From Limonium bicolor (taxonomy: Eukaryota; Streptophyta; Magnoliopsida; Caryophyllales; Plumbaginaceae), in contig CM041782.1 of the NCBI GenBank assembly GCA_023374045.1, positions 253,851,810-253,915,809 of the forward strand: a DNA stretch of 64,000 bases, given 5' to 3'. Under the pieces are notes generated by a model. That model ran no database searches. It saw nothing but the letters and a program-made list of their open reading frames with translations, and was not told where the DNA came from. The translations under genes were made by a program, and so were the position numbers. Positions 1-50,790 of the stretch are shown one piece after another. Within the stretch, counting starts at the first letter, position 1; the number at the start of each line of letters is the position of its first letter.

Positions 1-2
1 GG

Positions 3-113
3 ATGCTATATCATGGCATCAGGAAGATCAAACTGAATACCGCACCGTCGGCAGTGATCAATGCCACACACATGAAACCCGGACGTTTGAATTTGACCTT
101 CAGACAATTCTAA
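3..113 (+). CDS. AlkB-like 2OG-Fe(II) dioxygenase, C-terminal fragment
   Basis: The frame entering at the window edge ends in a TAA at 111-113 and encodes about 36 residues. It contains LYHGI, whose His would be the distal iron ligand, and ends GRLNLTFRQF. That tail matches the AlkB family signature in which two Arg residues bind 2-oxoglutarate and substrate. The family oxidatively demethylates alkylated bases in DNA or RNA. By my count 24 of 35 aligned residues match the C-terminus of the ORF at 42620-43169. Here both tail arginines are kept, whereas the other copy has lost the first. The ORF sits directly upstream of the retroelement protease in both places, which argues that it belongs to the element. 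The N-terminal part is outside the window. Confidence 0.75.
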   Translation: MLYHGIRKIKLNTAPSAVINATHMKPGRLNLTFRQF

Positions 114-277
114 GCCTTGTATACTTTTGTAATGTGTTAAGCCAGTATATGTTAAGGTTATGTATGTGTTAAGTTATATCAACCATGTAAACCAACAATG
201 TTGTAAAGAGGAAGTGTTAATGAATAAAGTGGAGTTATTGAAGTATATCAACCGTGTTGTTACCCAGTACTTATTAG
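114..277 (+). other. Stop-rich spacer between AlkB-like ORF and protease ORF
   Basis: About 160 bp with stops, AT-rich, between the AlkB stop and the opening of the protease frame at 278. It ends close to AG-terminated, acceptor-like steps (TTACCCAG at 261-268 and GAATTAG ending at 293). The other copy has TTACCCAG and TTGTTAG at the matching place just before the conserved Leu-Gly-Cys-Ala peptide that leads into the protease. This may be a splice acceptor region, but that is inference only. Confidence 0.4.
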
Positions 278-1871
278 TTTGCCAATGAATTAGGCTGTGC
301 ACTCGGAACGGGAGGTACATTGAGTGTCTGCAATGAGGCAGAAGCCGGCAAGAGCGGCACAATCCTCACCGGTACCTTTCCAGTGAATGGCGTGGATGCA
401 TCGATCTTGTTCGACTCTGGAGCCTCACACACATTTGTTTCGCTATCTTTTGCGAAGAGGCTGGGGTTAGATGGAGAGGAGATGCCAGACTTCTTGGTCA
501 CTCTCCCATCGAAAGAGCGGATCAGGTGTACCCGCTACCACCGAGATGTCATTGTACGAATCAGAGGTGAAGAGTTCCCGATCGACCTGATAGAGTTCGA
601 CGGACTTGGATTTGATGTGATTGTCGGGATGAACTGGTTGGAGCGGTACAAGGGCAGAATCCTGTGTGCCGAGCATCGACTGCTTCTTCGGAGTCCATCT
701 GGGGTTACCATATCATACCGCCAGAGGCCCAGGGAGCCTTCGACACAGATCATCACCGCCATGGCCATGTATCGTGAGTTACGACGAGGGAGTGATGTAT
801 ACCTCTGCTATGTCCAGGACATAGAGAGAGACCCTGAGTTTAGCCCAGATGTGCCGGTAGTGTCGGAGTTTCCTGATGTATTTCCTAAGGAACTGCCGGG
901 CATGCCGCCAGCACGAGAGGTTGAGTTTGAGATCGACTTAGTTCCGGGCACTGGACCCATTGCGAAAGCACCTTATCGTATGGCTCCAGCAGAGATGACA
1001 GAGCTCAAGGAGCAGCTGAGAGACCTACTCGACAAGGGCTTTATCCGCCCTAGTGTTTCACCATGGGGAGCGCCGGTCCTCTTCGTGAAGAAGAAGGACG
1101 GTAGCCTCCGCCTGTGTATTGATTATCGGGAGCTGAATGCTGTTACGGTGAAAAACCGTTACCCTTTACCACGCATCGACGATCTATTTGATCAGCTGAG
1201 GGGTGCATCAGTATTCTCCAAGATAGACTTACGTTCCGGATACCATCAGATTGCCATCCGTGATAGTGATATCGAAAGACAGCTTTCAGAACGAGGTATG
1301 GGCATTATGAGTTCACAGTTATGCCGTTTGGCTTATCGAATGCACCAGCAAGTTCATGGACTTAATGAACCGTTTGTTCCAAGATCAGTTGGACAAGTCA
1401 GTGGTAGTCTTCATCGATGACATTCTTGTGTATTCTAAATCAAGAGGTGAGCACGAAAGCCACCTGAGAAATGTGTTACAAACTCTGAGGAGAACCAGTT
1501 GTATGCAAAGTTTTCGAAATGTGAATTTTGGTTGAACCAAGTATCCTTCCTTGGACATGTGATTTCTGAGGCCGGGATCGCTGTTGATCCGGCAAAGATA
1601 GATGCAGTGCGCACCTGGCCTAGGCCGAAGACAGTCACTGATATCAGGAGCTTCCTCGGTCTGGCAGGTTATTATAGGAGGTTTGTGAAGGACTTCTCCA
1701 TGTCTCGAAGCCGATGACTTCCTTAATGAAGAAGGATGCACCATTCGAGTGGACAGTCGACTGTGAGAGTTCTTTCGGAGTCTCAAGGATGCTCTGACAT
1801 CTGCACCAGTCCTGACTATACCAGACGGTCCAGATGGTTTTGAGGTCTACTGCGACGCATCAGGCAGAGGT
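278..1871 (+). pseudogene. Tekay-like pol: protease and reverse transcriptase, frameshifted
   Basis: An open frame from 278 to 1420 encodes a retropepsin with the DSGASHTF active site (Asp at about 413-415). It is followed by the N-terminal reverse transcriptase ([12 protein letters not shown], then [13 protein letters not shown]). The frame is lost near 1271 by an apparent one-base deletion. Further one-base losses occur near 1353 and 1490, and others near 1700 and 1770. The catalytic FIDD box is still readable at about 1410-1421 in another frame, and [14 protein letters not shown] lies at about 1660-1700. The enzyme would copy element RNA in cytoplasmic particles if intact. As it stands this copy cannot encode a full RT. 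Confidence 0.9.
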
Positions 1872-3667
1872 ATGGGTTGTGTATTGATGCAGCACGGGAA
1901 GGTCGTAGCATACGCCTCCCGTCAGCTGAAGAAGCATGAGGAGAACTACCCTACCCACGACTTAGAATTGGGTGCCATTGTCTTCGCATTGAAGATATGG
2001 CGACATTATTTGTATGGGGTAAGTGTGACAATCTATTCTGACCATAAAAGCTTAAAGTACTTGTTCACTCAGAAAGAGTTGAACATGAGGCAAAGAAGGT
2101 GGGTTGAGTTTCTGAATGACTACGATATTAATCTGCAATACAAAGAGGGTAAGGCAAATGTGGTAGCTGACGCACTGAGTCGCCGAGCACACTCTCTCCA
2201 TTCGCTAGTCTCTCATACTGGCTTGGTTGAAGAGGTGCGGAGTGCTCAGATGACGGATCAGTATATGCTGGAGATCCGGCAGAAGCTTATTGATGGCACA
2301 TTCGAGGGTCAGAAGTACGACTTCAGACTCCACGATGATGACCTGATTAGGCTGAATGGCCGATTGTGTATACCTAGGAGTAGCGCTGAGTTGAAGGAGC
2401 GCATATTGAGTGAATCCCATTGTTCTACTACTTCGATTCACCCCGGAGCTTCAAAGATGTATAAGAGTATGAAAAGGTATTTTTGGTGGACTGGAATGAA
2501 GAAAGATGTTAGTGATTATGTGTTGAGGTGTCTCACTTGCCAGAAGGTCAAGTTTGAGCACCGACGGCCTGGTGGTATGGTACAGCCAATGCCAGTGCCT
2601 GAGTGGAAGTTCCATGATATCTCCATGGACTTTGTAGTAGGGCTTCCGCCTACAAGGGGAGGTCTGAATATGATATGGGTGATAGTTGACCGACTGACCA
2701 AGGTGGCCCGATTCATTCCGATGAAGGACACTTGGAAAGTGGCAAGATTGGCAGAACTGTTTGATAAAGAGATTGTAAGACATCATGGTGTACCGAAAAC
2801 GATTGTATCTGACAGAGATACCAGATTCTTATCCAGATATTGGAAGTCTACACGAGAGGCATTGGGTACTGAATTGAAATTAAGTACAGCGTTTCACCCA
2901 CAGACCGATGGTCAGAGTGAGCGCACCATTCAGACACTTGAGGATATGCTACGTGCTTGTGCACTTGACTTTCAGACCAGCTGGATTGATAAGTTACATC
3001 TGATCGAGTTTAGTTACAACAACAGTTATCATGCTTCGATCAAGATGTCTCCCTTCCAGGCCTTGTACGGTAGACCATGCCGCACGCCATTATGCTGGGA
3101 TGAGTCGAGTGAGACGGTCATTATAGGACCAGAGTATCTTGAACAAGTTCAGGCAGAAGTTCGCCAGATCCGGGCTAACATGAAGGCAGCTCAGGATAGA
3201 CAGAAGTCGTACGCAGATGTGCGCAGACGTGACCTGGAGTTCGCCGTGGGCGATCAGGTATTTTTGAGAGTATCCCCCATGAAGGGAGTATTTCGTTTTG
3301 GCCAGAAGGGCAAGTTGAGCCCAAAGTATGTGGGGCCTTATGTTGTGACGGAGCGGATCGGCCCGGTAGCCTATAGACTAGACCTACCCGCCGAGCTGGG
3401 CAAGGTACATGATGTATTTCATGTGTCCCAGTTGAAGAAGTATATGTCTCATCCGTCTCATGTGCTTCAGCCTGAAAGGCTAACCTTAGAGCCGACCATG
3501 CGATCAGTGGAGACTCCGGTACGGATTCTGGATGCTAAGACTCGAGACACTCGCCATAAGTCCGTGAGACTGGTGAAAGTTCTTGGTCTAACCAGGACGT
3601 TGAGGAGGCCACTTGGGAGCTGGAAGATAAGATGAAGGCGAAGTACCCGTCATTGTTTACTTCTTAG
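1872..3667 (+). pseudogene. Tekay-like pol: RNase H, integrase, chromodomain-like tail
   Basis: A long open frame (1872-3635) covers the RNase H region ([20 protein letters not shown], then ADALSRR). The integrase zinc region follows (HPGASKMYK ... CLTCQKVK, about 2430-2550). The DDE core has Asp in SMDFVVG (about 2630), Asp in VSDRDTRF (about 2812) and Glu in [10 protein letters not shown] (about 2925). A GPY/F module is at about 3325, and a chromodomain-like stretch starts at about 3520 ([11 protein letters not shown]). A frameshift near 3590 garbles the last 25 or so residues; the ancestral stop would be the TAG at 3665-3667. Chromodomains of this group are thought to steer integration to heterochromatin. 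Confidence 0.88.
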
Positions 3668-3981: not shown

Positions 3982-3997
3982 TTTTAAGGGGGGTAGA
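3982..3997 (+). promoter_or_regulatory. Polypurine tract next to 3' LTR
   Basis: TTTTAAGGGGGGTAGA ends one base before the LTR start (TGAAATACCCC). This is the usual site for priming plus-strand DNA synthesis. Confidence 0.85.
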
Positions 3998-6210
3998 TTG
4001 AAATACCCCAAACCTTAATATATTGTTTAAACACTTAAATATGGTGTATTAAGACTAAAAAGAGTCTTAGAAACATTAGTAAACAAATTTAAAAAAAAGG
4101 AAACACAAAATGTGCTTTAAAGTCAATAAGAGCCAAAATGTGCTCTAAGCTTGGGATAAACTTGGTTAAGACCTAATGAACTTACCAAGACCTCATTTAT
4201 ACACTAATGAACATATTAAACAATTACCAAAGAAAACCAAGCTTGAAAACAAGTTTAAACACAAAATGTGCTTTAAGGAGTCTTAAAGCACATTTTTGAA
4301 AAATTGTCTTGTAAATGAGTTTTGAGTGGCTAGATGTCCATCATTACTCTTAAATATATGTGTACTATATAATCACATTTGGGTGTCTATATTAATGGGA
4401 AATCAAAAATTTCACTTCTATGTGCCTTGTTTTATGAATAGTATTTTATAAGCTATTTTAACATATGTTTGTTAAGTAATTAAATTGACAAACAAAGACT
4501 ATATTACCCTCATTAATATAGGGGGCCGGTTTTCTAAGGTGTGGTGACTCACCACCTCTTGTTATTTTGTTAAGTAAATAATGATGACTAATGTGTACTA
4601 TTTACTTTAAAGCTACAAATATCTTCTAAAAGTAAACTAATCTTCATTCTCTCATTTCTTTCTTCTCACACACGGTTTCCCACCTCTCTTCTTCCTTCTT
4701 CTTGCTCTCTCACGGTAATACCACTACCACCATTAAACTCACTTTGATCTCTTGTTAAATCTTGCTCACTTGTCCAAATCAAAAACAAACACCACCATCT
4801 TCTTCCTCTCCTCAAGCTCTTCATTTCTATCTTCTCAAAACTCAAGACAACCATTTCGGTGCCATGGAGTTCTCCATTGAAGGAGCTTGAGCTTGTATTT
4901 TTACATATTGTTACTCTCCTTGGCTTCTAGGTAAGGAATCTCAAATAAAAATCATTTCCTCCTGTTTTTGTCATGTCCGAAAATACATATTGAAGGAGCT
5001 CTTTTGTGACCTTGTTCTAGCTTCATTCCAACTCTTCATGGACTAGGTGGAGTCCTCTCTTGCTAGATATTCAAACTCTCTTCAAAGAGCAAGGTAAAAC
5101 AACTACATTAATGTTTTTGAAACAATGTAAAATTAGGGTTTACAATGAGATGGAGCTTATAGCTTGAATACTCATTATAATGTTTGTATATTGTTTAGAA
5201 CTTGTCAAAGAATCAAATACCTATCGGTTTTCTAAAGGAAACAAGAAAGAAGTTATTTTGCAAAAGAGGTAAATCTACTAACCAATGTTTTTTAAATGCC
5301 TTAGGAGAAATGAGCTTATAAATGCTTATTAAAACTACCTAAAGAGCAAATGGTGAATGACTTAGTAAAGTGTTCTCAAGAGCTTAGTAAAAGGCATATG
5401 TGTTGTTGAGTGTATTTGCAGGTTAAAGGCAAATATATTGTGGAAATTCAGTGTTTATGATTTATGCATCTTAAGGGCCTAAGAGCCATGTCATTTAAGG
5501 GCCTAAGTGCCATGCAATTTAAATTATGCACTATATTGTGATGTAGTGCTTTGTGAGTGAGTTTGTGTATAATAAGTACTTGATGGATTTTTAGTGTTCT
5601 TGGTTGTTTGTTGGTAAAAACAAGTGTTTTGGTTTAGTAATGTTCTAGGAGAACCTATGTCGAAATTTAGGTAACAAATGTGAAGTTCTAAGTGTTAAAA
5701 TGAGTTTGATAAGTTAAGGAGTATTTAAAATGGTTAAGTGTTGTTCTTGTGTAGGAAACATGCATTAAGGTGATTTAGGATGTAACAAGGACTTAGGCAT
5801 GAGCTTGAGATTTTAGTATGTACCAAAGTCATTTTGGGACTTAGGTAAAGACTTAGGCAAACTTTGGTAAATTAAGGAGAAAGTATGAACTTGAAAAAGG
5901 ATTTGAAGTAATGAATAAGGAGTTAGTTGTGAGAGATGATGCTTGGGAGATGATGTTAAGATAAGGAGAAAACATTTTGGGATAGTAGTTATCATAGGTG
6001 AGAAACACCATTTAGAAACCTAGTGTAAAATGTTGTAAGTGTTAAGGAATTTACAAGGAAATAAGTAAAGGTTTAAGGAATTAGAAAAAGAGTTTTTGAG
6101 TGTTTAAGGATGGCTTAAGTTTGTTTGAAGTGCCCAAATGAGGTTAGGGGTACTAGGTTATATGGGGTGAAGTTTGGAGTTGAATGTAAAAAGGAAAACA
6201 AGATTTGGGG

Positions 6211-6480
6211 CAGACCGGACTTGCGACCGGACTTGCAAGTTCGGTCGGGCCCAGTTTACCCTGCGAGAATTGGCTTCTGGAATGGACCGACCTTGGGACC
6301 GGACTTGCAAGGTCGGTCGGGCTTGTAAATTGTGTACGGATTGAGTTACTGGAATCGACCGGACATAGGACCGGACTTGGCAAGTCCGGTCGGGCTAAAT
6401 TTCCGAAGGGGAGAAACTCTCTGGAATCGACCGGACATGGACAAGTCCGGTCGGCAAGTCCGGTCGGACCAAAACTTGTA
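6211..6480 (+). repeat. GC-rich palindromic tandem array in LTR
   Basis: Three to four diverged units of about 80 bp share the core GACCGGACTTG(G)CAAGTCCGGTC, itself a near-perfect palindrome, spaced by segments with CTGGAATNGACC. It lies 58-65% of the way through the LTR and stands out from the AT-rich flanks. Confidence 0.8.
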
Positions 6481-7701
6481 AAAAAAAAACAGAAAAGAAT
6501 GTGACTTATGTAGTTAACCCTAGGGTGTATAATGAAGGTAACCTAGGGTAAGATAGACATTAAAACATGTCATACAATTATGTTAAACACTTAGTAAATT
6601 TGGAGGTTAAGTAAGTTAATTAACCGACGTTCTTGAATTATGTATAGGAGTGACCTACGGAGGAAACCAAACGAGGCAAGGACCAAGGTATGGTTTTCTT
6701 GCAGTCTGTTGTCTAGCGGTTTACACCGGTTTGTGTGTTGTATGTTTTTCTGTGTGTTTACAACGTTATAAGATTTAAACATGTAATGAGTTTACAGTTG
6801 TTCATATTATTGTGATGTGATGTTGTGACTCAATTCCCTTGTGTGGTCTAACATGACTTACCACCTATTGTGTGTTGGTTGTTAAGTTCCACTATGAACT
6901 TCTAACAAGTGTTAACTGGGAAGTGAGGAATCCGGTTGTCCGGTCATGCATGTAAGTTAAGAGTGGATATCTGAATCAGATTCGACTCTTATGTTGTTAA
7001 GATTGTTCTCCTTAATTTGGCGTTCGATCTCCCGCTAGCTTCTTCCAAAGCTTACCTATTCTGACTTATGATCGGTTTAGTGGGAACCTGTGTTTGTGTG
7101 GTGTGTTCGGGTCACTAAATCCGAACCATCTGTGACTTAAGTTACTCGTTCGTCTAACAGAACGGTAATGAGTGTGTTTAACGAGCTTAACATGAGGGTG
7201 AATCACTCTCTAGGCTCTTATGTTATTTGACCCTTGTGGTTTGTTATTGTGGAACCAAGATCCACCGTGTATGTTATGATGAGCTGTGCACTATTGATGC
7301 TATGCTCCATGTTATGTTATGTTGTGTATGTAAATGAATGCCATGTTATCATGACAATTAGCTGCGCGTATCCCGGTAGCCGATGGGCTGCGCGTTAGCC
7401 ATACCAGCCAAGGGTTGCTGACCCCCTCGGGGGATCCATATTTCTTATACTGCAGGATGAGGATCGAGAAGCGGAGTGGCTTTAGATCCTAGGGTGCAGG
7501 TTACTTTTGTATACTTTTGGATGTTGGCCCGGGATGCGCCTGTGCTCCTGTGGCGTTATACTTTTGGTTGTTGTAAGTTACAGTGATGTTATACAGTGAA
7601 GGATGTATGTAGTACTCGGTATTGTATATAAGTATTTATGGTTTAGTTTTATGCTCGGGAGTCTGATCATCAGACCGGTACAATTGTATTTCTTCTGCCT
7701 T

Positions 7702-7723
7702 GTCAACCACGTGGGTGGTTGAC
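7702..7723 (+). promoter_or_regulatory. U5 hairpin, 9-bp stem
   Basis: GTCAACCAC / GTGGTTGAC around a 4-nt loop, perfect, 91 bp from the LTR end. It corresponds in position to hairpins in five other LTR families or copies of this window. Confidence 0.65.
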
Positions 7724-7814
7724 GGCATTGTAGCACCGAAGCGTTAGTTACCGTTTAGTTATTTAATTCCGCTGCGATTTCATTTAGTATCATGTGTGTA
7801 TTAGGGGTGTTACA

Positions 7815-28603: not shown

Positions 28604-30056
28604 GAACTTCACTTTCCAAGTTTTGTTTCATCTATTCTCTTCATCCATTGACTACCCAAGCTTCATACATAAACTTAGGCATATTCTAATACTAGAATAT
28701 CACTTTGATTCACCTTAAAACATTGTCCAACTTGTTACTCAATCTTCTTATCAAATCTCTTAACACTTGTAACATTTCCTTTTGGTTTTCCAAGTGGTGT
28801 TTCACCTTAAATGACCACTACACTAAAATGTTTCCTCACCTTCATAACATCATCTCCCAAGCATCTCCTCTTACTAAGTAAATCCTCTTTTCACAACTTC
28901 TTGAATTCCTTTCTCAAAACCTTACCTAAACATCATTCCCTCCTTATTCATCAACATTACCTAAACTTTAAACAAACTTCTCCAAGACTTTATTACATCC
29001 TAAAACACTCATTGAATTCCTAGAACTCCCAAGACAATACCAAAGTCCTTGTAGCACTTTAGAACACCTTAAAAAAAACATGTTTTCTTCCTTAGTAAAA
29101 CATTTATCCTTTCCTAACATATCCTAGTTCACCAAAGTTCATTTAAGCACTTACAACTCCTTATACATTATACAAGTTTTGCCATGGGTTCTCTTAGCAC
29201 ACCATCATTCCAAAACTCATAGTTTTCACCATTAGACATTCAAGAACACCTAAATCCATCAAGAACACTATCACACACAAAACTTCACCAAATTTACACT
29301 ACATCACAATATAGTGCATAATTAAAATTGCTTGGCACTTAGGCCCTTAAATAACATGGCTCTTAGGCCCTTAAATTGCTTAAACCTTAAACACTGAATT
29401 TCCACAATATTATGCCTTTGACCTGCAAAGCATACAACAAGACATATGTTCTTTTACTAGTCTCTTGAGAACACTTTACTAAGTCATTCACCATTTGCTC
29501 TTTAGGTAGTTTTAACAAGCATTATAAGCTCATTTCTCCTAAGGCATCAAACAACATTAGGTTAGTATATTTACCTCTTTTCCAAACAACTTCTTTCTTG
29601 TTTCCTTACAAAACCGGTAAAGTATTTGATTCTTTGTCAACTACTACACAATATACAAACATTGAAATGAGTATACAAGCTTTAAGCTTCATCTCATTGT
29701 AAACCCTAGGTTTACATTGTTTCAAAACATTAATGTAGTCGTTTTACCTTGATCTTTGAAGAGAGTTTGAATATCTATGAAGAGAGGACTCCACCTAGTC
29801 CATAAGAGATTGGAATGAGGCTAGAACAAAGTCACACAAAGATCTCCATCAATGAGTATTTTCGGTCAATAACAAAACATGGAGGAAACTTGATTTTTCT
29901 TTGAGATTCCTTACCTAGGAGCAAAGGAGATCAATAATATGTGGTAAAACAAGCTCAAGCTCCTTCAATGGTGGAACTCCATGGCACCGAAATGGGGCTC
30001 TTGAAGTTTTGAGAAGATAGAAATGAAGAGCTTGATGAGAGGAAGAGAATGGTGGT

Positions 30057-30556
30057 NNNNNNNNNNNNNNNNNNNNNNNNNNNNNNNNNNNNNNNNNNNN
30101 NNNNNNNNNNNNNNNNNNNNNNNNNNNNNNNNNNNNNNNNNNNNNNNNNNNNNNNNNNNNNNNNNNNNNNNNNNNNNNNNNNNNNNNNNNNNNNNNNNNN
30201 NNNNNNNNNNNNNNNNNNNNNNNNNNNNNNNNNNNNNNNNNNNNNNNNNNNNNNNNNNNNNNNNNNNNNNNNNNNNNNNNNNNNNNNNNNNNNNNNNNNN
30301 NNNNNNNNNNNNNNNNNNNNNNNNNNNNNNNNNNNNNNNNNNNNNNNNNNNNNNNNNNNNNNNNNNNNNNNNNNNNNNNNNNNNNNNNNNNNNNNNNNNN
30401 NNNNNNNNNNNNNNNNNNNNNNNNNNNNNNNNNNNNNNNNNNNNNNNNNNNNNNNNNNNNNNNNNNNNNNNNNNNNNNNNNNNNNNNNNNNNNNNNNNNN
30501 NNNNNNNNNNNNNNNNNNNNNNNNNNNNNNNNNNNNNNNNNNNNNNNNNNNNNNNN
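30057..30556. other. Assembly gap, exactly 500 N
   Basis: A round-number N run, likely a placeholder of unknown true size. It separates the LARD 5' LTR from a hAT-like gene, so their adjacency is not established. Confidence 0.98.
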
Positions 30557-37300: not shown

Positions 37301-38662
37301 AAGGGAGGAAGGAAATGAGGTTGCAACCGTATAACTTAGGCTATATTGGAAGGAATTTTGATTTGTTTATTTTGGACCCATAATTGGCATGTTAGGTCAT
37401 GTCTTTGTTTATTGTTTTTCTTTAGTTTATTAGGCTCCAAAATTCCTAAATTAAGGCACCCATTCGGCCATGTTACAAGACAAGGCAAGGTGGAAGAAAT
37501 TATGGAAGCTAAAGGACAAGGTAAGTTAGGTAAAGTTTTATTCTCTTGATTTTTCAATGTTTAGACTTGTCCTCTTCTTCCCTTGTAGGTAGACGATTTC
37601 AAGGCTTAATTGGAGCCTCTCAATCGGCAGCTAAGAGCCATAGACAAGCATGGGATGGTCACTTGCATTTAACAAATCAAAAAGTAGAATCTAGATCTAC
37701 TTTTTGCTTTAATTATTTTTTCTTTTGTCAAGCTAACATGGCCTTGTTTTCTTGCAGGATTTCGACAGCATGTAGGTCAAATGAGACTTATATTCTTCTT
37801 TCTTTAAGTATTATAGCACATGGGAAGGTGAGTCACCATGTTCTATGTCTTTTATAAGTTTTAAATGTAAATTTTATACTAGTTTTTAGGTAGAAAATCG
37901 GCCCCTATAGATCTACTTGTTTGACACTGCCTTTAGTTGATTTTGAGGGTCAATGCATCCCCATTTAAGATTCATAATTCGTGGCATGTCAAAAACTACA
38001 AGGTAATTGCGTAAAACGCGTTTTAGTGACACCCGAAGGTGCGTTTTTGTGCTCTAAGGATATTTTGGGAAATAAGTTGTCTCTATGAGTTCCAAGTGTT
38101 TATAAACATTTATTATAGTAAATAATGACATATTAAGGTGTTACATTGAGTTATATGGGGTTACTTCATGACACAATTCCCGGGCTATCGGGACACTCCC
38201 GGGGTAAAAAGGAGCGTTAAGGAATTCTCCCGAGGGTTTTGTTGAATTTGAGAAACTAGCTCGTGGGTTCTCTTTAGAATGATTATTAATGATGTTAGGA
38301 ACTCTAGGAATGAATTATATAGGGGTTCGTGCCGCCTCGGCACCTCTCCAGGCTTTTCTTGCTTTAAGGTGCGTGCGTGAGCACTCCCGAGCGTTTTGTG
38401 TTTTTGACTAAATATAGCCTAGGGACTATGTTTGTATACTCATATAATGAGGGTATGACCATTTGGTTTGAGTTTTTGAAGGTCATACAAGGTCATGCTT
38501 AATCGCATGTTTCTAAGGCGTTTTAGCGTTTATGGTGAAACGACTATTTTTACGTAACGTTTTCATGCATGTATTTGCATGTGTACGTGAAATGGTTTAT
38601 ATTTGGATTATTTTCCATTAAATAATGGTTTTATAATGTTAATTAGATTTGGGGTATTTCAA

Positions 38663-38678
38663 TCTACCCCCCTTAAAA
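38663..38678 (-). promoter_or_regulatory. Polypurine tract
   Basis: In the element sense TTTTAAGGGGGGTAGA, one base from the LTR. Confidence 0.85.
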
Positions 38679-39166: not shown

Positions 39167-39699
39167 TTATAATTCCCATGTGGCCTCTTCAACATCATGG
39201 TTCGACCAAAGAACCTTTACGAGGATCACAGTCTTGTTTCGAGTATCTCGTGTTTTTCTATCTAAGATTCGTTGCGGTGTTTCCACGTACCGCATTGTTG
39301 GTTCTAACAATAGTGTCTCTGGTTGTAGAACATGAGAAGGATGAGGCATGTATTTCTTAAGCTGAGACACGTGAAAAACATTGTGTACTTTGCCCAACTC
39401 TACTGGCAAATCAAGTCGATATGCCACAAGGCCCACCCGCTCTGTGATAGCATAGGGTCCTACAAACTTCGGGCTTAGCTTGCCCTTCTGTCCAAATCTG
39501 AATACACCCTTCATCGGTGATACTCGTAGAAATACTTGGTCACCAACTGCGAACTCAAGGTCTCGTCGTCTCTCATCAACATACGATTTCTGTCTGTCTT
39601 GTGCTGCTTTCATATTATTTCTGATCTGTTGTACTTCTGCCTGAACTTGCTCTAAGTACTCAGGCCCAATGATGACGGTCTCACTAGACTCGTCCTAGC
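39167..39699 (-). pseudogene. Integrase C-terminus and chromodomain-like tail
   Basis: The frame 39613-39167 encodes [19 protein letters not shown], a GPY module (KLSPKFVGPY), [10 protein letters not shown] and a chromodomain-like end (RILDRKTRDTR ... [17 protein letters not shown]), then a stop. It is close to the plus-strand copy at 3180-3600 but stops about 15 residues earlier. A stop upstream near 39696 separates it from the integrase core. Confidence 0.85.
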
Positions 39700-40440
39700 A
39701 CAATGGTGTGCGGCATGGTCTGCCATATAGTGCTTGAAAAGGTGACATCTGTATAGAGGCGTGATAACTGTTGTTGTATGCAAATTCAATTAGATGTAAC
39801 CTATCTATCCAGCTGCCCTGGAAATCCAAGGCACATGCTCGTAGCATGTCCTCTAAGGTCTGAATAGTCCTCTCTGATTGACCATCCGTCTGAGGATGAA
39901 ATGTTGTGCTAAGCTTCAGTTTAGTTCCAAGTGCTTCGCGAGTAGCTCGCCAATATCATGAAAGAAATCTGGTATCTCGATCTGAAACAATAGTCTTTGG
40001 TACTCCATGATGCCTGATAATTTCTTTTTCGAATAATTCTGCCAACCTTGGCCTTCCAAGTGTCTTTCATCGGTATAAATCTCGCCACTTTGGTCAGTCG
40101 ATCAACAACAACCCATATCATATTTAGTCCTCCTCTCGTAGGTGGTAGTCCCACCACGAAGTCCATAGAAATATCATAAACTTCCATTCTGGAACTGGCA
40201 TAGACTGCACCATGCCTCCTGGTCGTCTATGTTCGAATTTCACTTTCTGACAAGTGAGACATCGAATCACATACTCTGTCACGTCGCCCTTCATACCACT
40301 CCACCAGAAATACCTCTTCAGATCTTTGTACATCTTAGAAGCTCCTGGGTGGACAGATGTGGAAGAAGTATGGGACTCTCGAAGAATATGGTCTTTTATA
40401 TCTATGCTGTCTCTGGGAATACACAATCTGCCCTTTAATC
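39700..40440 (-). pseudogene. Integrase zinc-binding and catalytic core, broken
   Basis: Frame 40426-40124 holds the HHCC region ([22 protein letters not shown], with CLTCQKVK). Frame 40187-39921 holds the first catalytic Asp ([14 protein letters not shown]) and [17 protein letters not shown] shift near 40180 and more damage after about 40040 split the core. The Glu region ([12 protein letters not shown] in the sister copy) can still be followed at about 39850-39890. Confidence 0.82.
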
Positions 40441-41187
40441 TGATCAGCCCATCATCGTGTAGCTGGAACTCATACTTCCCTCCTTCAATGTACCGTCAGA
40501 CAACTTCTGACTGATCTCCATCATTCGCTGATCATTCTGCTGTGCGCTACGTATGTCGTCTATAAGACTCGAGCTAGCCACAATGGCATTTAAGGAATGT
40601 GCTCATCGACTCAATGCGTCTGCTACTACATTAGCTTTTCCTTTTTTGTACTGCAAATCGATGTCGTAATCCTTGAGAAATTCAACCCATCTTCGTTGTC
40701 TCATGTTTAGCTCCTTCTGGGTGAATACATATATTTCATTTGTGATCCGAGTATACGGTCATCTGGACACCATACAGGTAGTGGCGCCAGATCTTCAATG
40801 CAAATACAAATGCTCCAAGTTCCAAGTCATGTGTGGGATAGTTCTCCTCATGCTTCTTCAGTTGTCGGGAAGCGTAGGCGACTACCTTCCCATTCTGCAT
40901 GAGTACGCACCCTAATCCCCTGCCTGATGCATCACAGTAAACTTCATAACCCTCTGTGCCTTCAGGTATAGTCAAAACTGGTGTTGAGGTCAAAGCATCC
41001 TTCAAATACTGGAATGAGGTTTCACATTATGTAGTCCATGTGAATGGCGTGTCCTTCTTCATTAAACTTGTCATTGGTTTGGCTATTTTGGAGAAGTCTT
41101 TGACGAACCTTCTGTAGTAACCTGCTAACCCAAGGAAACTCCTGATATCAGTCACTGTCTTTGGTCTGGGCCAGGTGCGAACTGCTT
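40441..41187 (-). pseudogene. RT connection and RNase H, broken
   Basis: Frame 41005-40736 encodes [18 protein letters not shown] and [20 protein letters not shown], the RNase H start. 41150-41040 encodes [18 protein letters not shown] shift near 40735 and other breaks separate these from the ADALSRR-type end at about 40610. Confidence 0.8.
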
Positions 41188-41995
41188 CTATTTTGCTGGA
41201 TCCACTACGATCCCAGCGTCTGAGATAACATGTCCTGGAAAGGAAACTCGATCTAGCCAAAACTCATACTTGGAGAACTTAGCATAAAGCTGGTTCTCCC
41301 TTAAGATCTCGAGTACACGTCGGAGGTGACTCTCATGCTCTTCCTTAGACTTCGAATAAATTAGGATATCATCGATGAATACAACTACGGTCTTGTCCAG
41401 CTGCTCTTTGAATAATCTATTCATTAAGTCCATGAAGACTGCCGGTGCGTTTGACAAGCCAAAAGGCATAACTGTAAAATCATAGTGGCCATATCATGTT
41501 CTGAATGCTGTCTTTTCTCTGTCTTGCTCTCTGATAGGTATCTGATGGTACCCTGATCTCAAATCGATCTTTGAAAACACCTTTGCTCTTCTTAACTAAT
41601 CAAACAAATCGTCAATTCGTGGTAGTGGATATTTGTTCTTCACTGACACTGCATTAAGCTCTCTGTAATCGATACATAACCGAAGGCTTCCATCCTTCTT
41701 CTTCACAAAAAGAACTGGTGCTCCCCACGGCGATACGCTAGGTCGTATGTATCCCTTGTCTAATAAATCCTTCAACTGTTCCTTCAACTCAGCTATCTCT
41801 GCTGGTGCCATACGGTACGGTGCATTAGCTATGGGACCGGTACCTGGTAGTAACTCAATGGAGAATTCTACCTCTCTGGCTGGCGGTAAGCCTGGAAGTT
41901 CCTTTGGGAAAATGTCCGAAAATTCTGACACCACTGGCATATATGGATCAAAATCTGGGTCGTGCTCTACATCCTGAACATAGCATAAATATACT
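41188..41995 (-). pseudogene. Reverse transcriptase, broken
   Basis: Frame 41940-41596 gives the RT N-terminal half ([40 protein letters not shown]). After a stop near 41598 and a damaged stretch, frame 41469-41188 gives [20 protein letters not shown] and the catalytic box FIDDILIYS. This is a typical plant Gypsy RT. Confidence 0.85.
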
Positions 41996-42018
41996 TCCTT
42001 CTGCTTCCTAACTTCTTT

Positions 42019-42567
42019 TTACATGGACATAGCAGATATCACTTTTATTGATGGTGCTCTAGGGCTCTGGCGGTAAGACATTGTCACTCCTGATGGGCTC
42101 TTAAGTAACATTCTGCGCTCTGCACAAAGGATGCGGCCTCTGTGCCGCCCCAACCAATCCATCCCGGCTATGACGTCGAATCCTAGACCTCTGAACTCAA
42201 TTAGGTCAATGGGAAATTCCTCCTCAATAAGGATAGTGGCTCCTCTATAAAGACGAGTGCAACTGACCTTCTCCTTAGACGGGAGTGCCACCTTAAAATC
42301 AGGTAACTCTACGACTTCTAGCCCCAACTTCCCCGCAAGCGAAGGCGAAACGAAAGTATGTGAGGCTCCGGAGTCGAACAGTACTGATGCAGCCACTCCA
42401 TTGACATGAAAGGTACCAGTGAGGATCGTGCCGCCCTTGCTGGCCTCCTCCTCAGTAAGTATACTTAAGGCACCTTCCGTCTCCTTAGCACAACCTAACA
42501 ACAGAATCTGGGTAAGTACTTTGACATATGATGGGGGTCGAAAGACATTCACTTTTCATAACAATAA
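42019..42567 (-). pseudogene. Aspartic protease of second AlkB-bearing element
   Basis: 177-residue frame with the retropepsin site FDSGASHTF (Asp at about residue 60), then [23 protein letters not shown] and GVTMSYRQ. The peptide Leu-Gly-Cys-Ala near residue 19 aligns with the plus-strand copy at about 290-301 and may mark where the joined gag-pol frame resumes. A stop near 42019 ends the frame before RT. The N-terminal residues before that peptide have no match and may not be coding. Confidence 0.85.
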
Positions 42568-42619
42568 TGCTTCATTGATGAGATGATCTTCTTTCAGCTG
42601 TCTAAAGACAATTACAATG

Positions 42620-43169
42620 CTAGTATTTTCTAAAGGTCAAACTTAATATTCCTGGTTTCATGTGGGTGGTGTTTATCACTGTCGGAGGTGTTGTGTTTAT
42701 TTTAATCCTTTTAATTCCATGGTATAGCAGCCTTGACTTTCCACCCATTATTAAAACATCTCCTGAATTTAATATGATTTTCTTCGCAAGGTCCACACGC
42801 TTCTGCTCGCCATACAGAAACTCTGCGTCATCTCCAATTGACAAAGACAATACTGGTATCCCCTGATCGAGGGACCCTTGTGTTTCATCCTTGTCTTGGT
42901 GTAGTCCTACGCGGCCCCCTTCTTTATAGAAGTTGATGATACATAGATCAGCCCTTATATTGGGAACTGGATCTTCTTCTAACTGTTGAGCTGCATTAAC
43001 TGCTTGTTCCACAATTTGTAAATATTCCTCTGGGATTTTTGGTACTTGCGCTCCATCTATGGTCCTTGTATCCTGGTAGGTCTTTGAATAAGGATTCCAA
43101 TCCTTTCCTAAGCACATCATTTTCAGCTTCTTTTTGATCCTCCTGGAAATTCGGGTGTGTAGAAACCTC
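42620..43169 (-). CDS. AlkB-like 2OG-Fe(II) dioxygenase carried by Tekay-like element, 5'-truncated
   Basis: The open minus-strand frame runs from the Athila border (43169) to a stop at 42620, about 182 residues. The visible order is MMCLGKDWNP, DGAQVPKIP, LCIINFY (Asn and Tyr at 2-oxoglutarate-binding positions), GLHQDKDE (iron-binding HxD), LSLSIGDDAEFLYG, SGDVLIMGGKSR, LYHGI (distal His) and LTFRKY (Arg). These match cellular AlkB/ALKBH enzymes, which remove methyl groups from nucleic-acid bases using Fe(II) and 2-oxoglutarate. The first tail Arg found in the plus-strand copy is Ile here, so activity may be reduced. The ATG at 43183 belongs to the Athila LTR and is not the real start. No internal stop or frameshift is seen, although neighbouring pol has several. 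Confidence 0.88.
43165..43169. other. Likely left target-site copy of Athila insertion
   Basis: ACCTC precedes the Athila LTR within the AlkB-like ORF. The right-hand copy is beyond the window. Confidence 0.4.
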
Positions 43170-44800
43170 TGATAAGTGTCCAAATGAGCATGTTTTATAG
43201 GTGTATTTCATATATAATATTAGCACTTTTCTTGCTCATTTCTCCACTTCGGTTAGTTTTCCTCTAGTTTATGTTTTATTGTTATCTCACAAATTTATTG
43301 TTTTAACATGAGGAAAACCAAGCTGGGAGTAAAGTAGACGAAGAGACGAACGCATAGACGCAAACGGCTCAGAAAACGGAGTCCAAACGAAGAATCTAGA
43401 GCCGGTCAAAGTTCGTAGAAAAAAAATAAGTCAAAAACTTGTGTCCACCCTTGTGACCGCATGGGATTAGGCGGACACAAGGGTGACCGCATGGATCTAG
43501 GCGGACAACACATGCGACCGCATGGACTTGGGCGGACGTGAGTGAGTTGTGTCCGCATAGCCAGAGGCGGACGCCAACGCGGACAAGGCCACGTCCGCAT
43601 AGCCAGAGGCGGACGCCAACGAGGACAAGGCGGACGTGACTAAATTCACGCGACAGTTTTCTTCTTCGCCCACTGTCTGCAACTTGCTTCTGCCATATCC
43701 ATCTACTCCGAGCAGCGCCTACCTTAATTCCCTCACGCGTCTGTCCCCTGCAATCAATCTGCAATCAATTCTTCCACTCCAGATCTGCCTCTTCCCTTCC
43801 TCTACATAAACCCAGCAACTGCAACCTTAAACAGGCGTACGGAGAAAACCAGAAAATCAGACCATCGCTCACCACAATTACCATTCGCTTCCATTAATTC
43901 TCTCCCGTACACCACAACACATCATTCAGTCCCCAGAACCTAAACACTCCAATTCACTCATTCCACATACAATTTCCTACGTACTCGCTCCACTCTCCGT
44001 TCTCTTCATTTCTCCATTCACCATCCACACCTCCGTATCATTATTACGTCCAACCTCTGCCTGACTTATTACCAGTTAATATGTCAGGCTAAGGAGGATT
44101 TGCTCCGGGCGAAGGTTTAATTATGGTTTATTTAGTTGTGTAATCTATATTTCTACCGGTTAAAATAAATTCAGTTTGTTACGATTAAAGTTTATCACGC
44201 TCCCTTTTTAATAAATTTCATCGATTTATTAAAAAGCCTTACTAAATCTGTTTTTAATCTGATCGGTGACGAACAGACAGGTAAATTAAGCCGTAAAACT
44301 GTAGGAAACTTATTTTCATCGGATAAGTTAGTACTCAGTTGCAAGAATAAAATTCCTCACACTCCTCTGCCGTTTACACGTATTTTGCTTGAGTTTTCAT
44401 CGGACCTTGCATTTTTAGGTAAACGAGTTCTTATGAGTTCTCATCGGACCTTAAGATAATAACAGGAATCTTGCCAAATTATTTTATTAAACCGGTAGAG
44501 ATAGCATAACTAATCAGATCATATTAACCTAAACCCGGAGTTCCGTTTAATTCATCTTCATTTCACTAAATTAATCTGTTATTTATTTTTCAAGAACAAG
44601 TCAATTAATCCCCCCTCTCGTGACAAGCTTAGGTACTTAATAATTCACCTTAGTCTCACGGTTCGATATCCGGTCGCTTACACTTTGCTATACTACCACG
44701 ACCGGGATTTGTTTGCAGCCCGACGTTTATTTTGAGTTTTAATTTCTTTTCTTTTATTTTAATTTCACCAGTTCTAACCACTCACGATATCACGTCTGCA
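43170..44800 (+). mobile_element. Athila 5' LTR
   Basis: 1631 bp, starts TGATAAGTGTCC, ends CACGTCTGCA, followed by the primer-binding site. It is homologous over its whole length to the reversed solo LTR at 49032-50790. It contains GGCGGAC hairpin repeats at 43441-43640. Confidence 0.92.
43441..43640 (+). repeat. GGCGGAC palindromic repeats in Athila LTR
   Basis: Repeated GACCGCATGG...AGGCGGAC and GTCCGCATAGCCAGAGGCGGAC units, each able to form a short hairpin, 270-470 bp into the LTR. Confidence 0.8.
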
Positions 44801-45209: not shown

Positions 45210-46627
45210 ATGCCTTTTACCAGGTCAAACAGCCTCCCAGAAAATATTAATAATCACACGGTTGGTTACATTCCAGAGATCGAGAGAACCTTTCTGCGCA
45301 CCCTAAGGCAGAGACGAACTCAACAAAACATAACCACCACAGTGATAGAATCTGACCCGGAAGCTGACATGGCATCTACACCAGCGACAGTTCGAAACAA
45401 TTACAGGCCGTCTAATCTAGGACAACAGCCTACCATCATCCTTCCTCACCTTAGCCCATCCGAATACGATGAGTGGCAGAAGCTGAAGCCATATCATCAG
45501 ATCCGATGTGTGAAGGAGTTGGGCATGTTTGATGGCACCAATCCTGACGAAGCCCTGTTACATGTTACAAAGATCTTGCAACATGCCAACAGTCTCACTG
45601 CGACCGACGCGGTACTCCAGTTTGCAAGACTGACATTATTCCCTCACAGCCTGACGGGAAGTGCGAGCAAATGGTATCATAGCCTGACACCAAGTACCAT
45701 TCGTACTTGGGATGACATGGCCACCAAGTTCTACGACAAATTCCTACCCCCGAGCCGAAGTTGGAGATGATTGCTGAAATCTATAATTTCAAGCAGCCAG
45801 GGTCGGAGAACATTTGTGAAACTTGGGACCGTTTCAAAGGACTACTACTTACTTGTCCTCACCATGGTCTGACGAAAGAACAAGTATCACAATTGTTTTA
45901 CAAAGGCTTGATCGGTCCATGCAGAACAATGGTACTGTCCTCGTTAGGGGCTGACATTCTGAAAAAGCCAGTAGCACAATTTCTGAATAGCATGGAGTCT
46001 CTCTGTGAAGAAATCAGAGACTGGGCCTCCGGTGGATCAAGGAGCGGTACTCCAGGTTTAAATCATGTTGGGGAAAGTGATAACAAGTTCGACCAACTGA
46101 TGAAAAGCCATGAGCAACTCATGGAGAGCAATGCTCAGCAGGCAACAAAAGTCAGTACTCTGCAAAAAGTGGTTGAGCAGATGGCTATGAATTCCTACCC
46201 CCAGCAAGCTAAGTCGATGATTTCCCGATCATCTACAATCCCTCCAGGCTATGCTCCTCTTTCCCAATCATCTCCTGTTATTTCTTGTACGCAATGTGGT
46301 GGGCCTCATGACTATGAACAATGCCCCCAACTACAAGAATTAAAAGCAGCAGAGGAGGCAAACTATCTCACCAACAATTCAGGATACAGACAACCTTGGC
46401 AATGTAACATGCAACCCAACCTCGCTACTCAAACACCGACAATATCCAAAACCCACATACACTACAAACATCTCAAAATTACAGACCTCAGTCCAATTTT
46501 CAAGGAGGCCAAAGGCAATATCAACAACAGCCTTATGGCAATGAAGCTTCTTCGAGTCGATCAACTCAACCTCCTTCGAATCCTGAGTCTGAAATGTCTC
46601 AAATGCAAGAGATGTTTAAGGCAATGA
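45210..46627 (+). pseudogene. Athila gag, frameshifted
   Basis: ATG at 45210 opens a frame with ELGMFDGTNPDEALLHVTKI and FPHSLTGSASKWYHSL, the capsid-like core of Athila Gag. The frame ends at 45770 through a shift near 45760. The next frame (45761-46627) continues with FKGLLLTCPHHGL and a zinc knuckle CTQCGGPHDYEQC (CX2CX3HX4C) at about 46290. It loses homology after about 46420, where a second shift hands over to the frame that becomes the protease ORF. Gag would form the particle shell. Confidence 0.88.
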
Positions 46628-47835
46628 TGGGTAAGTCCAGAGATACGCAAGAAGACGTCGCAGCTCTGCGCAAAGACCAAAAAGCCTTGCAATCTCAGAT
46701 TCAACAGTTACTCACCCAACAAAGACCACCTGGTCAATTCCCTTCACAGACTAACCATAATCTAAGGGAGCAAGAAAATTCAATCCTTATAGACGATGGC
46801 ACATTCCAATCAACAAACTTGTGTGCAGTCTCCTTAAGGAGTGGAAGGGAACTTGCCACCAGAAAAGGAAAAGAAAAAGAAAATCATGAAGAGGCCTACA
46901 TCAATGATGAAGACACAACCAATCCAGCCTCACCTCCCTCAGAAATCCAAGTTCCTACTCCTGCTACTCCACCTCCATCTCGAGTTACCATCGAAATTCC
47001 ATCTTCCACTCCTAAAAACAGCGAACTCCCATTTCCCAACAGAATGAAAAAGAAACACCTAGATGAGCAGTTCTCCAAATTCTTGAGCATTTTCAAGAAG
47101 CTGACCCTCGACATCCCTCTAATAGATGCCTTGCAAGAGATGCCTAACTACGCCAAATTCCTAAAGGATCTCTTAACAAAGAAGAAGAAGAAACCTGGAA
47201 AAGAAACAGTGCACCTCACGGAGGAATGCTCTGCTGCCCTTCTTCGAGCACTCCCTCCCAAACAAACAGATCCGGGAAATCTCGTGATCCCGTGTTTTAT
47301 AGGTGGGGTAGACTGTGGAAGTGGTTTGTGCGACCTGGGAGCCAGCATTAATATCATGCCCTACCCCACCTTCTTGAAAGTAAAAGGAGGAGAAATGCAA
47401 CCGGTTCCTTTCAAACTCCAACTAGCAGACAGATCAGAGATCAAGCCCATGGGAATAGTCCGAGATCTGGTAGTTGGAGTATCTCGCTTTATCTTTCCAG
47501 CTGACTTCGTCATTCTAGGAATGGATGACGATGTTGAGGTTCCCCTGATTCTAGGTCGACCGTTTCTGAGTACTGCCAAAGCCATCATTGACGTCCACGG
47601 TGGGAAAATCACTCTACGGTACGAGGACGAAACGATCGAATTCGATATACAGAAAATGATGAAGAAAAGCTCTAACTTTTCTCCTCATGCAAAGACAGTG
47701 GGATTAACAGATGATGAGGAGGAAGAAGGCAATTTTTCTACAGATGAGGATATGTATTTCCTATCTTCCATCCCGAAAGCTGAAGCTGAACCGCTAGAGC
47801 AAGTATTATTTACTTCTCTAGAAGAAAAGGTGGAG
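46594..47835 (+). pseudogene. Athila gag C-terminus and aspartic protease, cut by insertion
   Basis: An open frame begins in the gag C-terminal linker (EMSQMQEMFKAMMG, SLRSGRELATRKGK) and enters the protease (VIPCFIGGVD, CDLGASINIMP with Asp near residue 246, VILGMDDDVEVPLILGRPFL, FDIQKMM). It is interrupted at 47835 by the solo LTR. The last codons of the predicted frame (to 47838) come from the insert. The continuation is at 54291. Confidence 0.9.
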
Positions 47836-49031
47836 TGAAATACCCCTAACCTTTAAAAATTAATTAAATGATCTATTAATGATCTAAATGATTAATAAAC
47901 ACCTAAATATTATTGGGGAACAATCTAAAAGATCTCAACAAGGCAAAACACACCTTAAGATCGGTAAAGCCAAAAATGTGTTGTGAAGCACCACAAAGAT
48001 TGTATGACCTCAAATAGGATCCAAAGTGGATTCCTAAGTATTATAATGAAGTAAGGAACACAACAAAACCGTTCACAAGGAGAACTAAGCTCAGGAACAC
48101 CCTGTGACACAAAACGTGCACTAAAACACCTTAAAGCACGTTTTTGTGAGATTGCCTTTTAAATTGATTTTTAATGGGCTTAAAATTATAATTATCCTTA
48201 AATATGATATTTAATCATATTATATCATATTAGGAATTTAATTCCAAATTTTACAGATTTTTACAAATTTAATATTAAAATATTAATAAAACCCTGAAGT
48301 GGGGCCCGCATGAGTCAAAATGACCAAGTTTGGTCAATGGGCAGTAAATGGCCCATTTAACCCCATGGAAATTGGCTGCAATAAGAGAGGAGGCAGCATA
48401 AGTCCTTGATTGACAATAATTCCTACCTAATACATTTACTTTTTGAAAATTAACTTACTTTTTCAAATAATTCAAGCCTTTCCACTCATTTCTCCCTTCC
48501 TTGTCTGTTTCTCTTCTGCCCAGCCGAGCTCTCCCCTTCCTTTGAAGCTCTCAAGTCTGTTCTTGAGCATGGAAGGCAAGCCTAGCTCCTAATGTAAGTG
48601 TTTTAATGTCATTTTTAGCCCTTTTTCTTCATCTCTCGCTACCAACACCTAAATTTCGTGGCTCATCCATTCCTATGGCTTATTCTCAGTGTTCTAAGGT
48701 TAGAACAAGAGCTAAACTCGGTTGAGACCAGTAGAGGGACCAAGGTTGTTCAAATCTACATTTTAAGGTAAAAATATGCTTTAAGCTCATAACTTTTGAT
48801 TCCCTTCGAGTTTGGCTGTGAAACTTTGGTCATAGCCTCATCTTCTTCTCCTTTTCATGTGGAATCTGTTGGTTAGCCATTTGGAGCAAGGGTGACCAAG
48901 ATCCAGAGAAATACTCTATTTAAGGCATTTTTCCAAGGTAAAACCTAATAACAAGGTAACATTTCGAGATCTAACTATTTCCTATGTCAATATGGTGGAT
49001 CTAACACCTTGTGGTGTGTTTGGTTCAGATC

Positions 49032-50790
49032 TGCAGAGTGGATTTATCGTGAGTGATTTAGAAGAGGTGTAGTTGTTAAAAGAAAGAAATTAATACTCAA
49101 AATATCCGTCGGGCTACAAATTAAAACCCGGTCGTAGTAGTGTAGAAGACAGAAGCGGCCGGGGTCAAACCGTGGGACTTATAGCGAGCTAAAGTAGTAC
49201 CTAAGCTTGTCACAAAAGGGGGGAAGTTAATTGACTTGTTTTTAGAGAATTAAAAGAGCAGATTAAATTATGAGTGCAGATGAATTAAATGGAACTCCGG
49301 GTTCAGGTTTTATATAATCTGATTAATTATGCTATCTCTTCCGGTTTAATAAATTAGTTTGGCAAAATTCCTGTTTTTATCCTAAGGACTAAGTCATAGA
49401 CCCTTAAGAACTCGTTTACCAGAAAATGCTCGGTCTAATCAAGGTTCGAGCAGTACTATGTAAACGGACGTTAAATTCGAGAATTATAATTGCATCTGTA
49501 AATACTGACTTATTAAATCATAATAAGTTTTCTCCAGATTTACGGCTTAAATAACCTGTCTATTTATCACCTGGTCTGATCAAAATAGACTTAGGAAAAC
49601 ATTTTAATAAATTCATGTAATTTATTAAAATGGTGAGAGAAATCCTTTAAGCGTACAAACTGTATTTATTAAAACCGGTAAAAATATTGATTACATAATT
49701 AAAAAACCATAATTAAAAACCTTGCCCGGAGCAAATCCTCCTTAGCCAGACATATTAACTGTAATAAATGACAGAGGTTGGACGTAATAACAGCACGGAG
49801 ACGTGATTAGTGAATGGAGAAATGGAGAGGTCGAAGAGTGAAACATGTACGTAGGTTATTATAAGTGAAGTGGGTGAATTTGAGAATTTAGAGAACTGGG
49901 GTATGAGATGTACGTGGTGTTAATGGAAGAGAATGAATGAGGTGAGAATGAGTGATTTTCTGGTTTTCTCCGTGCACTCGTATAAGGCTGTAGGGAATGG
50001 GTATTTATAGAAGAAATGAAGAGGTAGTCTTCCGTAGATATTTGCAGTTGATTGCCCACTTGAGTGCTTCGTTGATTGAAGCATTGATTGCTTCATTCAT
50101 TTATTGCAGGGGACAGTGGCGAAACGCGGGAGCGATTTAAGGTAGGCAGTGCTCGGAGTAGATAGATAAGGTGAAGACGACGACTGCGCGAAGAAGAAAA
50201 CTAGTCCGGCGTCTATTTTAGTCTTGACCGCGTCGAAGACCGCCTGGCGGTTTGGTGTGTGGTGTCCGCCTGATAAGTGGCGGTAGTGGTAGTGTTGTCC
50301 GCGTGGTAACGGGGCGGACAAGAGTGAGGAGACCGCTAGGCGGTTGCACGAGAGGAGTCCGCCTCCTCTTGGGCGGTCCCGTGTGTGGAGTCCGCCTGGT
50401 AATGGGGCGGACAAGAGTGAGACGTCCGCTAGTGGTTCCGCCACTTTAGAGGCGGTTGTGTGTGAGAGGACCGCCAGGCGGTTGTATATGAGACGTCCGC
50501 CTCCTCTTGGGCGGTTGCAGCTTGACCGTGGCCTATTTTACTTCAAACTTTGACCGGCTCTAGATTCTTCGTTTGGACTCTGTTTCCTGAGCCGTTTGCG
50601 TCCACGCGTTCGTCTCTTCGTCTATTTTACTCCCGGCTTGGTTTTCCTCATGTTAAACCAATAATTTTGTGAGAAAAACAATAAAACATAAACTAGAGGA
50701 AAACTAACCGAAGTGGAGAAATAAGCAAGAAAAGTGCTAATATTAAACATGAAATACACCTATAAAACATGCTCATTTTGACACTTATCA
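49032..50790 (-). mobile_element. Solo Athila LTR, reversed, nested
   Basis: Plus-strand ends TGCAGAGTGG and GACACTTATCA, flanked by AGATC at 49027-49031 and 50791-50795. 1759 bp, homologous to 43170-44800 in reverse but with many substitutions and its own version of the hairpin array (50226-50530). Confidence 0.94.
50226..50530 (-). repeat. GGCGGAC/GTCCGCC palindromic repeats, solo Athila LTR
   Basis: About eight hairpin-like units such as GACCGCCTGGCGGT and GTCCGCCTCCTCTTGGGCGG. More units than in the 5' LTR at 43441-43640. Confidence 0.82.

Follow-up and report, generated by a model that had tools for sequence, protein, structure and literature searches.

The minus-strand segment 42620..43169 of a 64,000-nucleotide stretch of Limonium bicolor DNA (the window, which here always means the whole stretch) raises the question of whether an AlkB-like dioxygenase frame lying beside the protease of a Ty3/Gypsy retrotransposon is a gene of that element, and how such a gene might be expressed and used. 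Copies across the source genome support AlkB as a standing part of a high-copy, chromovirus-like Gypsy family. Sequence comparison indicates that this family has probably acquired an ALKBH1C-type AlkB exon between gag and protease (PR) and kept it as a working gene, with splicing predicted to build either Gag-AlkB or Gag-Pol.

The minus-strand frame 43207-42620 is open, carries the NFY, HQD, distal His and last Arg motifs, and matches the 2-oxoglutarate (2OG)-dependent dioxygenase profile 2OG-FeII_Oxy_2 (PF13532) at E 4e-39, scoring 135.3 bits against a cut-off of 31.2. This profile match bears out the AlkB similarity claimed by an earlier note on this DNA. Solved sequences matching at E<=0.01 number 21 and comprise 5xeg, bacterial AlkB and ALKBH1; the best, at E 6e-55, is 5xeg, presumably a rice protein, followed by bacterial AlkB (E 7e-20 to 1e-17) and ALKBH1 (E ~1e-12). 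The predicted structure of the frame, 171 residues, has a mean predicted local distance difference test score of 93.5. An RVP_2 protease frame of Ty3/Gypsy pol opens at 42555 (E 7e-26) in the orientation of the AlkB frame, as the earlier note had described.

That note also called the AlkB frame uninterrupted over 42620-43169. The domain and its motifs stand, but only 43135-42620 encodes AlkB in this frame; the residues at 43167-43132 (GFYTPEFPGGSK) sit in a different one, which places a frameshift near 43130. The exon is truncated at 43169/43170, where a TG-starting long terminal repeat (LTR) begins. AlkB enzymes bind 2OG through RxxxxxR and iron through HxD...H, as these motifs are given in passages of PMC9289625. 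The first of the two 2OG arginines (PGRLxLTFR) is Ile in this copy, leaving the ligand pair incomplete. The AlkB remnant has 1 break in 181 codons and the adjoining pol 12 in 995 (13 in 999 with a second reference). Since ~2.2 breaks would be expected against the 1 observed, AlkB is no better preserved here than chance allows, and the contrast between an open AlkB and a shattered pol, offered earlier as a sign of selection, is not significant. Downstream of the exon remnant, all on the minus strand, lie a spacer with stops in all frames that ends in a predicted splice acceptor, TTAG (42495..42619; the pol exon starts at 42494), pol itself (39167..42494), encoding PR, reverse transcriptase (RT), RNase H (RH), integrase (INT) and a weak chromodomain match and carrying 5 frameshifts and 7 stops in 995 aligned codons, and the polypurine tract AAGGGGGGTAGA with the start of the 3' LTR, TGAAATACCCC (38661..38674). 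Window copy 1 is a dead relic, cut by an LTR, frameshifted and deprived of one arginine.

A second, inverted pol copy occupies window 290-3733 and is 73% identical to copy 1, while window 1-121 matches the AlkB end. The two copies are collinear in alignment from AlkB through PR. Copy 2, on the plus strand, begins with the 3' end of the AlkB exon (1..113; last 36 residues and stop), reading ...GRLNLTFRQF-stop, ~180 bases and then PR; the full AlkB frame extends beyond the left edge and is complete immediately left of the window (locus L112). The spacer at 114..293 has stops in all frames and ends in a predicted splice acceptor, ATTAG. It is followed by pol (294..3650; PR, RT, RH and INT), with 0 stops and 5-6 frameshifts in ~1000 aligned codons, and by a polypurine tract and 3' LTR delimited by its ends, TGAAATACCCC ... 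GGGGTGTTACA (3986..7814). The sequence AAGGGGGGTAGA-TTGAAATACCCC is common to the 3' ends of both copies.

The same order recurs across the window's own genome (2.92 Gb, 2686 contigs), confirming that a retrotransposon carries AlkB. An AlkB query returned 46,176 first-look candidates, and the best 150, which were scored, all lie at E <1e-98, with 131 of them free of internal stops. A systematic sample of 20 loci (every seventh row, rows 2 to 135) has gag upstream of AlkB in 18 (exceptions L092 and L095), PR-RT downstream in 18 (exceptions L100 and L107), and RH-INT downstream on the same strand in 17 (exceptions L098, L100 and L107). The element order gag - AlkB - PR-RT-RH-INT is confirmed, including the placement between gag and PR that had been proposed.

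Selection of loci by protease gives the same picture. A copy-2 protease-RT query yielded 94,289 candidates, of which 108 were scored, and AlkB lies directly upstream in 8/8 of the best loci, the window's own copy included. An exact PR motif, used so that neither AlkB nor score influences the sample, occurs at 3773 genome places, and an exact subfamily-1 AlkB-end motif at 1324; both reversed controls gave 0. The first 100 PR places were listed in genome order. Among the first 24, on contig C1, 4 have the exact AlkB-end motif and 19 of the other 20 encode AlkB in the correct direction, so that AlkB is directly upstream in 23/24. The lone exception, L120, has sequence like the window repeat 13510-13876 in AlkB's place, and an insertion is likely there because of this other-repeat-like sequence. 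By extrapolation from the 3773 exact matches, AlkB copies would number in the thousands. Absence of AlkB from almost all family members, the outcome named beforehand as fatal to the idea, is the reverse of what the two protease-selected sets contain.

These counts bear directly on whether AlkB is a passenger, either a host-gene fragment from a single capture or a flanking host gene situated beside pol by chance. Retroelements can carry silent gene fragments, and the window copy is indeed broken. AlkB is nevertheless found in 23/24 PR-selected copies taken in genome order and in 8/8 of the best protease-RT loci, and the passenger explanation is rejected by these genome counts; the ratio of nonsynonymous to synonymous substitution (dN/dS), ~0.09 with nearly saturated silent sites, also speaks against it, and the synonymous divergence (dS) between subfamilies leaves no room for a recent common master copy. 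We give this explanation practically no credence.

Two observations bear on the make-up of the family. One of the PR-selected loci counted as having AlkB, L126 (G000:C1:6921594-6922394), has a copy with several breaks whose identity is 48% with subfamily 2 and 37% with subfamily 1; it is either an old divergent relic or a third subfamily. Among the loci scored there are also dozens of 99%-identical protease-RT copies of the copy-2 type, three with open frames of >1000 residues, and the copy-2-type family seems to have moved recently.

Selection on AlkB was measured over 210 codons of open frames, 11 from one subfamily and 6 from the other. Between subfamilies the median dN/dS is 0.088 (66 pairs, 55 with finite dS; range 0.06-0.124; median dS 2.4). 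Within subfamilies the medians are 0.113 (55 pairs, 0.02-0.566) and 0.177 (15 pairs, 0.123-0.349), values lowered somewhat by the choice of open frames; the earlier note had proposed a dN/dS estimate among young copies. When frames are taken from the IC[FY]P motif on, the 4 pairs shown fall at 0.090-0.099 over 242 codons. The two window copies have a dN/dS of 0.13 over their 36 shared AlkB codons, and a nonsynonymous share as low as theirs arose in 0/2108 random-mutation runs and in 2/2787 with transition bias; for 159 codons of their first PR frame the ratio is 0.087, and silent sites are saturated in most of the remaining pol. The substitution pattern thus indicates that AlkB is under strong purifying selection across two subfamilies with nearly saturated silent sites. 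Separately, segmental duplication of one dead locus was considered as the source of both window copies and is rejected: protein sites have stayed conserved even though silent sites approach saturation.

An AlkB domain kept for nucleic-acid binding or for Gag structure and not for catalysis is another conceivable reading, since fusion to Gag would put the domain in the particle, where binding alone could help. The catalytic residues argue otherwise. The first 2OG arginine is kept in 20/20 sampled copies and both arginines in 19/20 (L104 has Trp at the second), and NFY, YHG and both arginines, together with HQD, are retained in 18/18 open frames, which had been picked in part for HQD and the last Arg. 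We therefore regard a purely non-catalytic role as very improbable, and retention as a working enzyme remains the preferred reading.

The nearest proteins to the window AlkB, P0001-P0005, are 60-71% identical, and named plant relatives, 43-53% identical, are labelled ALKBH1C-like, abh1-like, AlkB-like or unspecified; several of the ALKBH1C-like relatives are named DNA N(6)-methyladenine demethylase by their sources. In a tree of 61 rows, built from the window frame plus the first 60 homologs in a list of 120, the window frame groups with P0001-P0005 (100/97). Another 21 proteins, plant-like and in 16 cases named as plant, group apart from it (96/94). Support is weak for the branch between the element-type and plant-like groups (87/65), and P0027 falls outside both. 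By its nearest named relatives the element AlkB is assigned to the ALKBH1C class, ALKBH5 not being among the tree rows. It shares with plant ALKBH1C-like proteins and 5xeg the same domain and an N-terminal IC motif; compared with those plant proteins, the stretch ahead of the core is up to nine residues shorter in the element-type AlkB, which groups with P0001-P0005 in a clade of its own.

The accompanying pol encodes the Pfam domains RVP_2, RVT_1, RT_RNaseH and integrase in this order after gag, and the LTR side is marked by the polypurine tract and 3' LTR start. The chromodomain PF00385 is matched in copy 1 at E 8e-4 (19.7 bits against a curated 25.1) and is not reported in copy 2. One RT_RNaseH region is present in a 621-aa frame of copy 2, no search having been aimed at an additional RNase H. 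Domain order and similarity point to a chromovirus-like lineage, for which Tekay is a candidate label. None of the 120 pol protein matches listed out of 8000 exceeds 60% identity; in another listing of pol matches the best longer one, P0136, is 75% identical over 59% of the query, and some Tanacetum rows reach 72-77% over shorter parts. Viral contigs gave no match with the AlkB protein or with pol, the AlkB alignment returning 3 distant loci; the best 80 of 578 confirmed loci in a genome contig collection are all bacterial by title; and Rfam gave nothing at gathering scores.

How the AlkB exon could be translated is suggested by the sequences around it. Stops separate gag from AlkB and AlkB from PR, and the PR frame of neither window copy has a Met ahead of the catalytic DSG. 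The gag end reads CCAG|GTA followed by a stop in both subfamilies, and both share acceptor sequences, AG|GAAGC or AG|GAA(A/C)C before AlkB and TTAG|G(T/C)TGTGC before PR; the remaining intron sequence is widely divergent between them. The donor AG|GT is present in 19/20 subfamily-1 and 7/8 subfamily-2 loci (L108 has AA|GT; it was not found in L115), the AlkB acceptor in 20/20 and 7/8 (missing in L115), and the PR acceptor in 16/20 and 8/8, two of the four misses, L100 and L107, lacking PR. The donor is in phase 1, and both acceptors complete a Gly codon in frame at the two loci tested, L112 and L103. The gag-AlkB join would read SRP-G-TFNICYP in L112 and TNP-G-SYKICFP in L103, and the pol join in L103 TNP-G-CAKETEG. 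Predicted introns measure 122-147 bases to AlkB and ~990-1068 bases to pol. From donor, acceptors and phase we infer alternative splicing that yields Gag-AlkB or Gag-Pol.

A standing element gene could instead yield free AlkB, translated from an internal start or from a transcript of its own, and not a Gag fusion. Subfamily 2 offers a Met at AlkB-frame residue 33 (MEQCQVIQPGMILL; L112) just ahead of the domain, where internal initiation is possible, and the ORF2 of an orchid element is described in PMC9289625 as expressed independently of Gag-Pol. Subfamily 1, however, reads VIQPGLILLKG with no Met before or at the domain start; its first AlkB-frame Met, identical in 6/6 listed copies, lies ~40 residues inside the domain. 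Moreover, both subfamilies conserve donor and acceptor, and at the two loci tested these sites are in phase. A free protein is therefore unlikely, though less so than a non-catalytic role.

Several points count against a retained, spliced AlkB gene and have to be set beside this evidence. The exact AlkB end occurs 255-262 bases upstream in 15 of the 100 listed PR places, and of the 28 AlkB-end places over the same span, 13 have no exact PR motif. An intact AlkB exon frame is present in 10/28 loci, and the within-subfamily dN/dS values are drawn from the open ones. The predicted splicing is deduced from motifs and phase, with phase checked at two loci, and the subfamily-2 Met leaves an unspliced route to the protein there. 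With these points weighed, we still consider acquisition of the exon between gag and PR, its retention as a functional gene and its splicing to Gag to be probable.

Under this reading, a single donor at the gag end would join either the acceptor before AlkB or that before PR, producing a capsid-linked demethylase alongside the polymerase, and the Gag fusion would carry AlkB into the particle. AlkB enzymes oxidatively remove N-methyl groups. The packaged enzyme may thus strip such groups from element RNA or cDNA, whether N6-methyladenosine (m6A), N6-methyladenine (6mA), 1-methyladenosine (m1A) or 3-methylcytidine (m3C), and demethylation would relieve host silencing or repair damage. DNA, RNA and tRNA substrates are all conceivable, because the class is ALKBH1C-like and some of its members bear the name DNA 6mA demethylase. 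The biology of human ALKBH1 and of retroviruses suggests the further idea that m1A in the primer tRNA acts as a stop for plus-strand synthesis. The fuller proposal, that one Gag donor builds Gag-polymerase or Gag-demethylase and that a packaged ALKBH1-type enzyme edits genomic RNA, cDNA or primer-tRNA m1A, is more tentative, and we give it slightly less than even credence. If the splicing is true, the layout is an unusual one in which a host-derived enzyme serves as an alternative to pol.

Other elements in the window surround these copies. The LTR that cuts the copy 1 AlkB is the 5' LTR (about 43170..44789, plus strand) of an inserted element, which we take to be Athila-like, with a primer-binding-site-like sequence near 44804 and gag frames at 45210-47838. 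Within it, 49045-50790 is a minus-strand Athila-like LTR, inverted to and 73-93% like the 5' LTR, which may be a solo LTR or else another insertion nested there. Minus-strand long LTR stretches at 17104-21706 and 26435-30056 (an N run, 30057-30556, follows) are 98.5% identical to each other over 3.6 kb and 79-81% like the copy 2 LTR, with the same polypurine tract and LTR ends; the ~4.7 kb between them printed no pol or gag match. The two stretches and the interval mark a recently moved relative of the AlkB family that is probably non-autonomous. Inverted LTR-like pieces, 77% alike, lie at 13390-14763 and include the AlkB-family LTR start (TTGAAATACCCC at 13877, TGAAATACCCC at 14137).

Among known systems, the closest is the Gypsy_Pa_2799 family of Phalaenopsis, a published AlkB-bearing Gypsy with a paALKBH5-like ORF2 (PMC9289625). 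It is the only AlkB-bearing retrotransposon found in the open literature, covered mostly through titles and the starts of abstracts, with subscription papers and preprints outside the scope. The earlier statement that no AlkB domain is known in such elements thus holds for chromoviruses in the literature found, but not for Gypsy elements as a whole. According to the abstract, the orchid AlkB binds RNA and demethylates m6A RNA in vitro; further passages place the 25-kb element, with its dual RNase H, in Tat beside Ogre, put the ALKBH5-class domain at the C-terminus of a separate 565-aa ORF2, with gag-pol in one ORF1, and describe a survey of 121 angiosperm genomes in which no other genome had the domain (PMC9289625). 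As far as that text goes, the Phalaenopsis and Limonium families have in common a high-copy plant Ty3/Gypsy element and an AlkB 2OG-Fe(II) dioxygenase with cofactor residues kept. The Limonium family differs in its chromovirus-like pol, in the position of AlkB between gag and PR and not in a separate ORF2, in its ALKBH1C class, judged by the nearest named and solved relatives, and in its predicted alternative splicing. The Limonium case appears to be an independent capture, the second in plant Gypsy elements, and involves a different lineage and a different class of AlkB. That such captures recur argues for a benefit to retrotransposons from the removal of methyl marks on nucleic acids, and makes it directly testable whether RNA or DNA base methylation is an anti-transposon defence in plants.

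The splicing principle has precedent in Ogre, where, in the part of PMC6317226 that treats it, the region between two polyprotein ORFs is spliced out of a subset of transcripts, allowing the whole polyprotein. The Limonium family would likewise remove an inter-ORF region from a subset of transcripts; unlike in Ogre, the region lies before PR, is ~1 kb long and is predicted to hold a second, alternative coding exon. An RNA-level role for such enzymes is documented from the host side, as Arabidopsis ALKBH9B takes methyl marks off ONSEN RNA and releases that RNA from stress granules according to the review PMC12786077, and AlkB domains are listed for the plant RNA viruses Alpha-, Betaflexiviridae and Closteroviridae in passages of PMC9289625. 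Like these viruses, the Limonium family is a genetic parasite of plants that passes through RNA and has captured AlkB independently. Viral AlkB is part of replicases, whereas in the retroelement it would be a Gag-linked exon. An AlkB-bearing Gypsy element is itself already known; what is new here is the pol lineage, the AlkB class, the position of the exon and its predicted expression.
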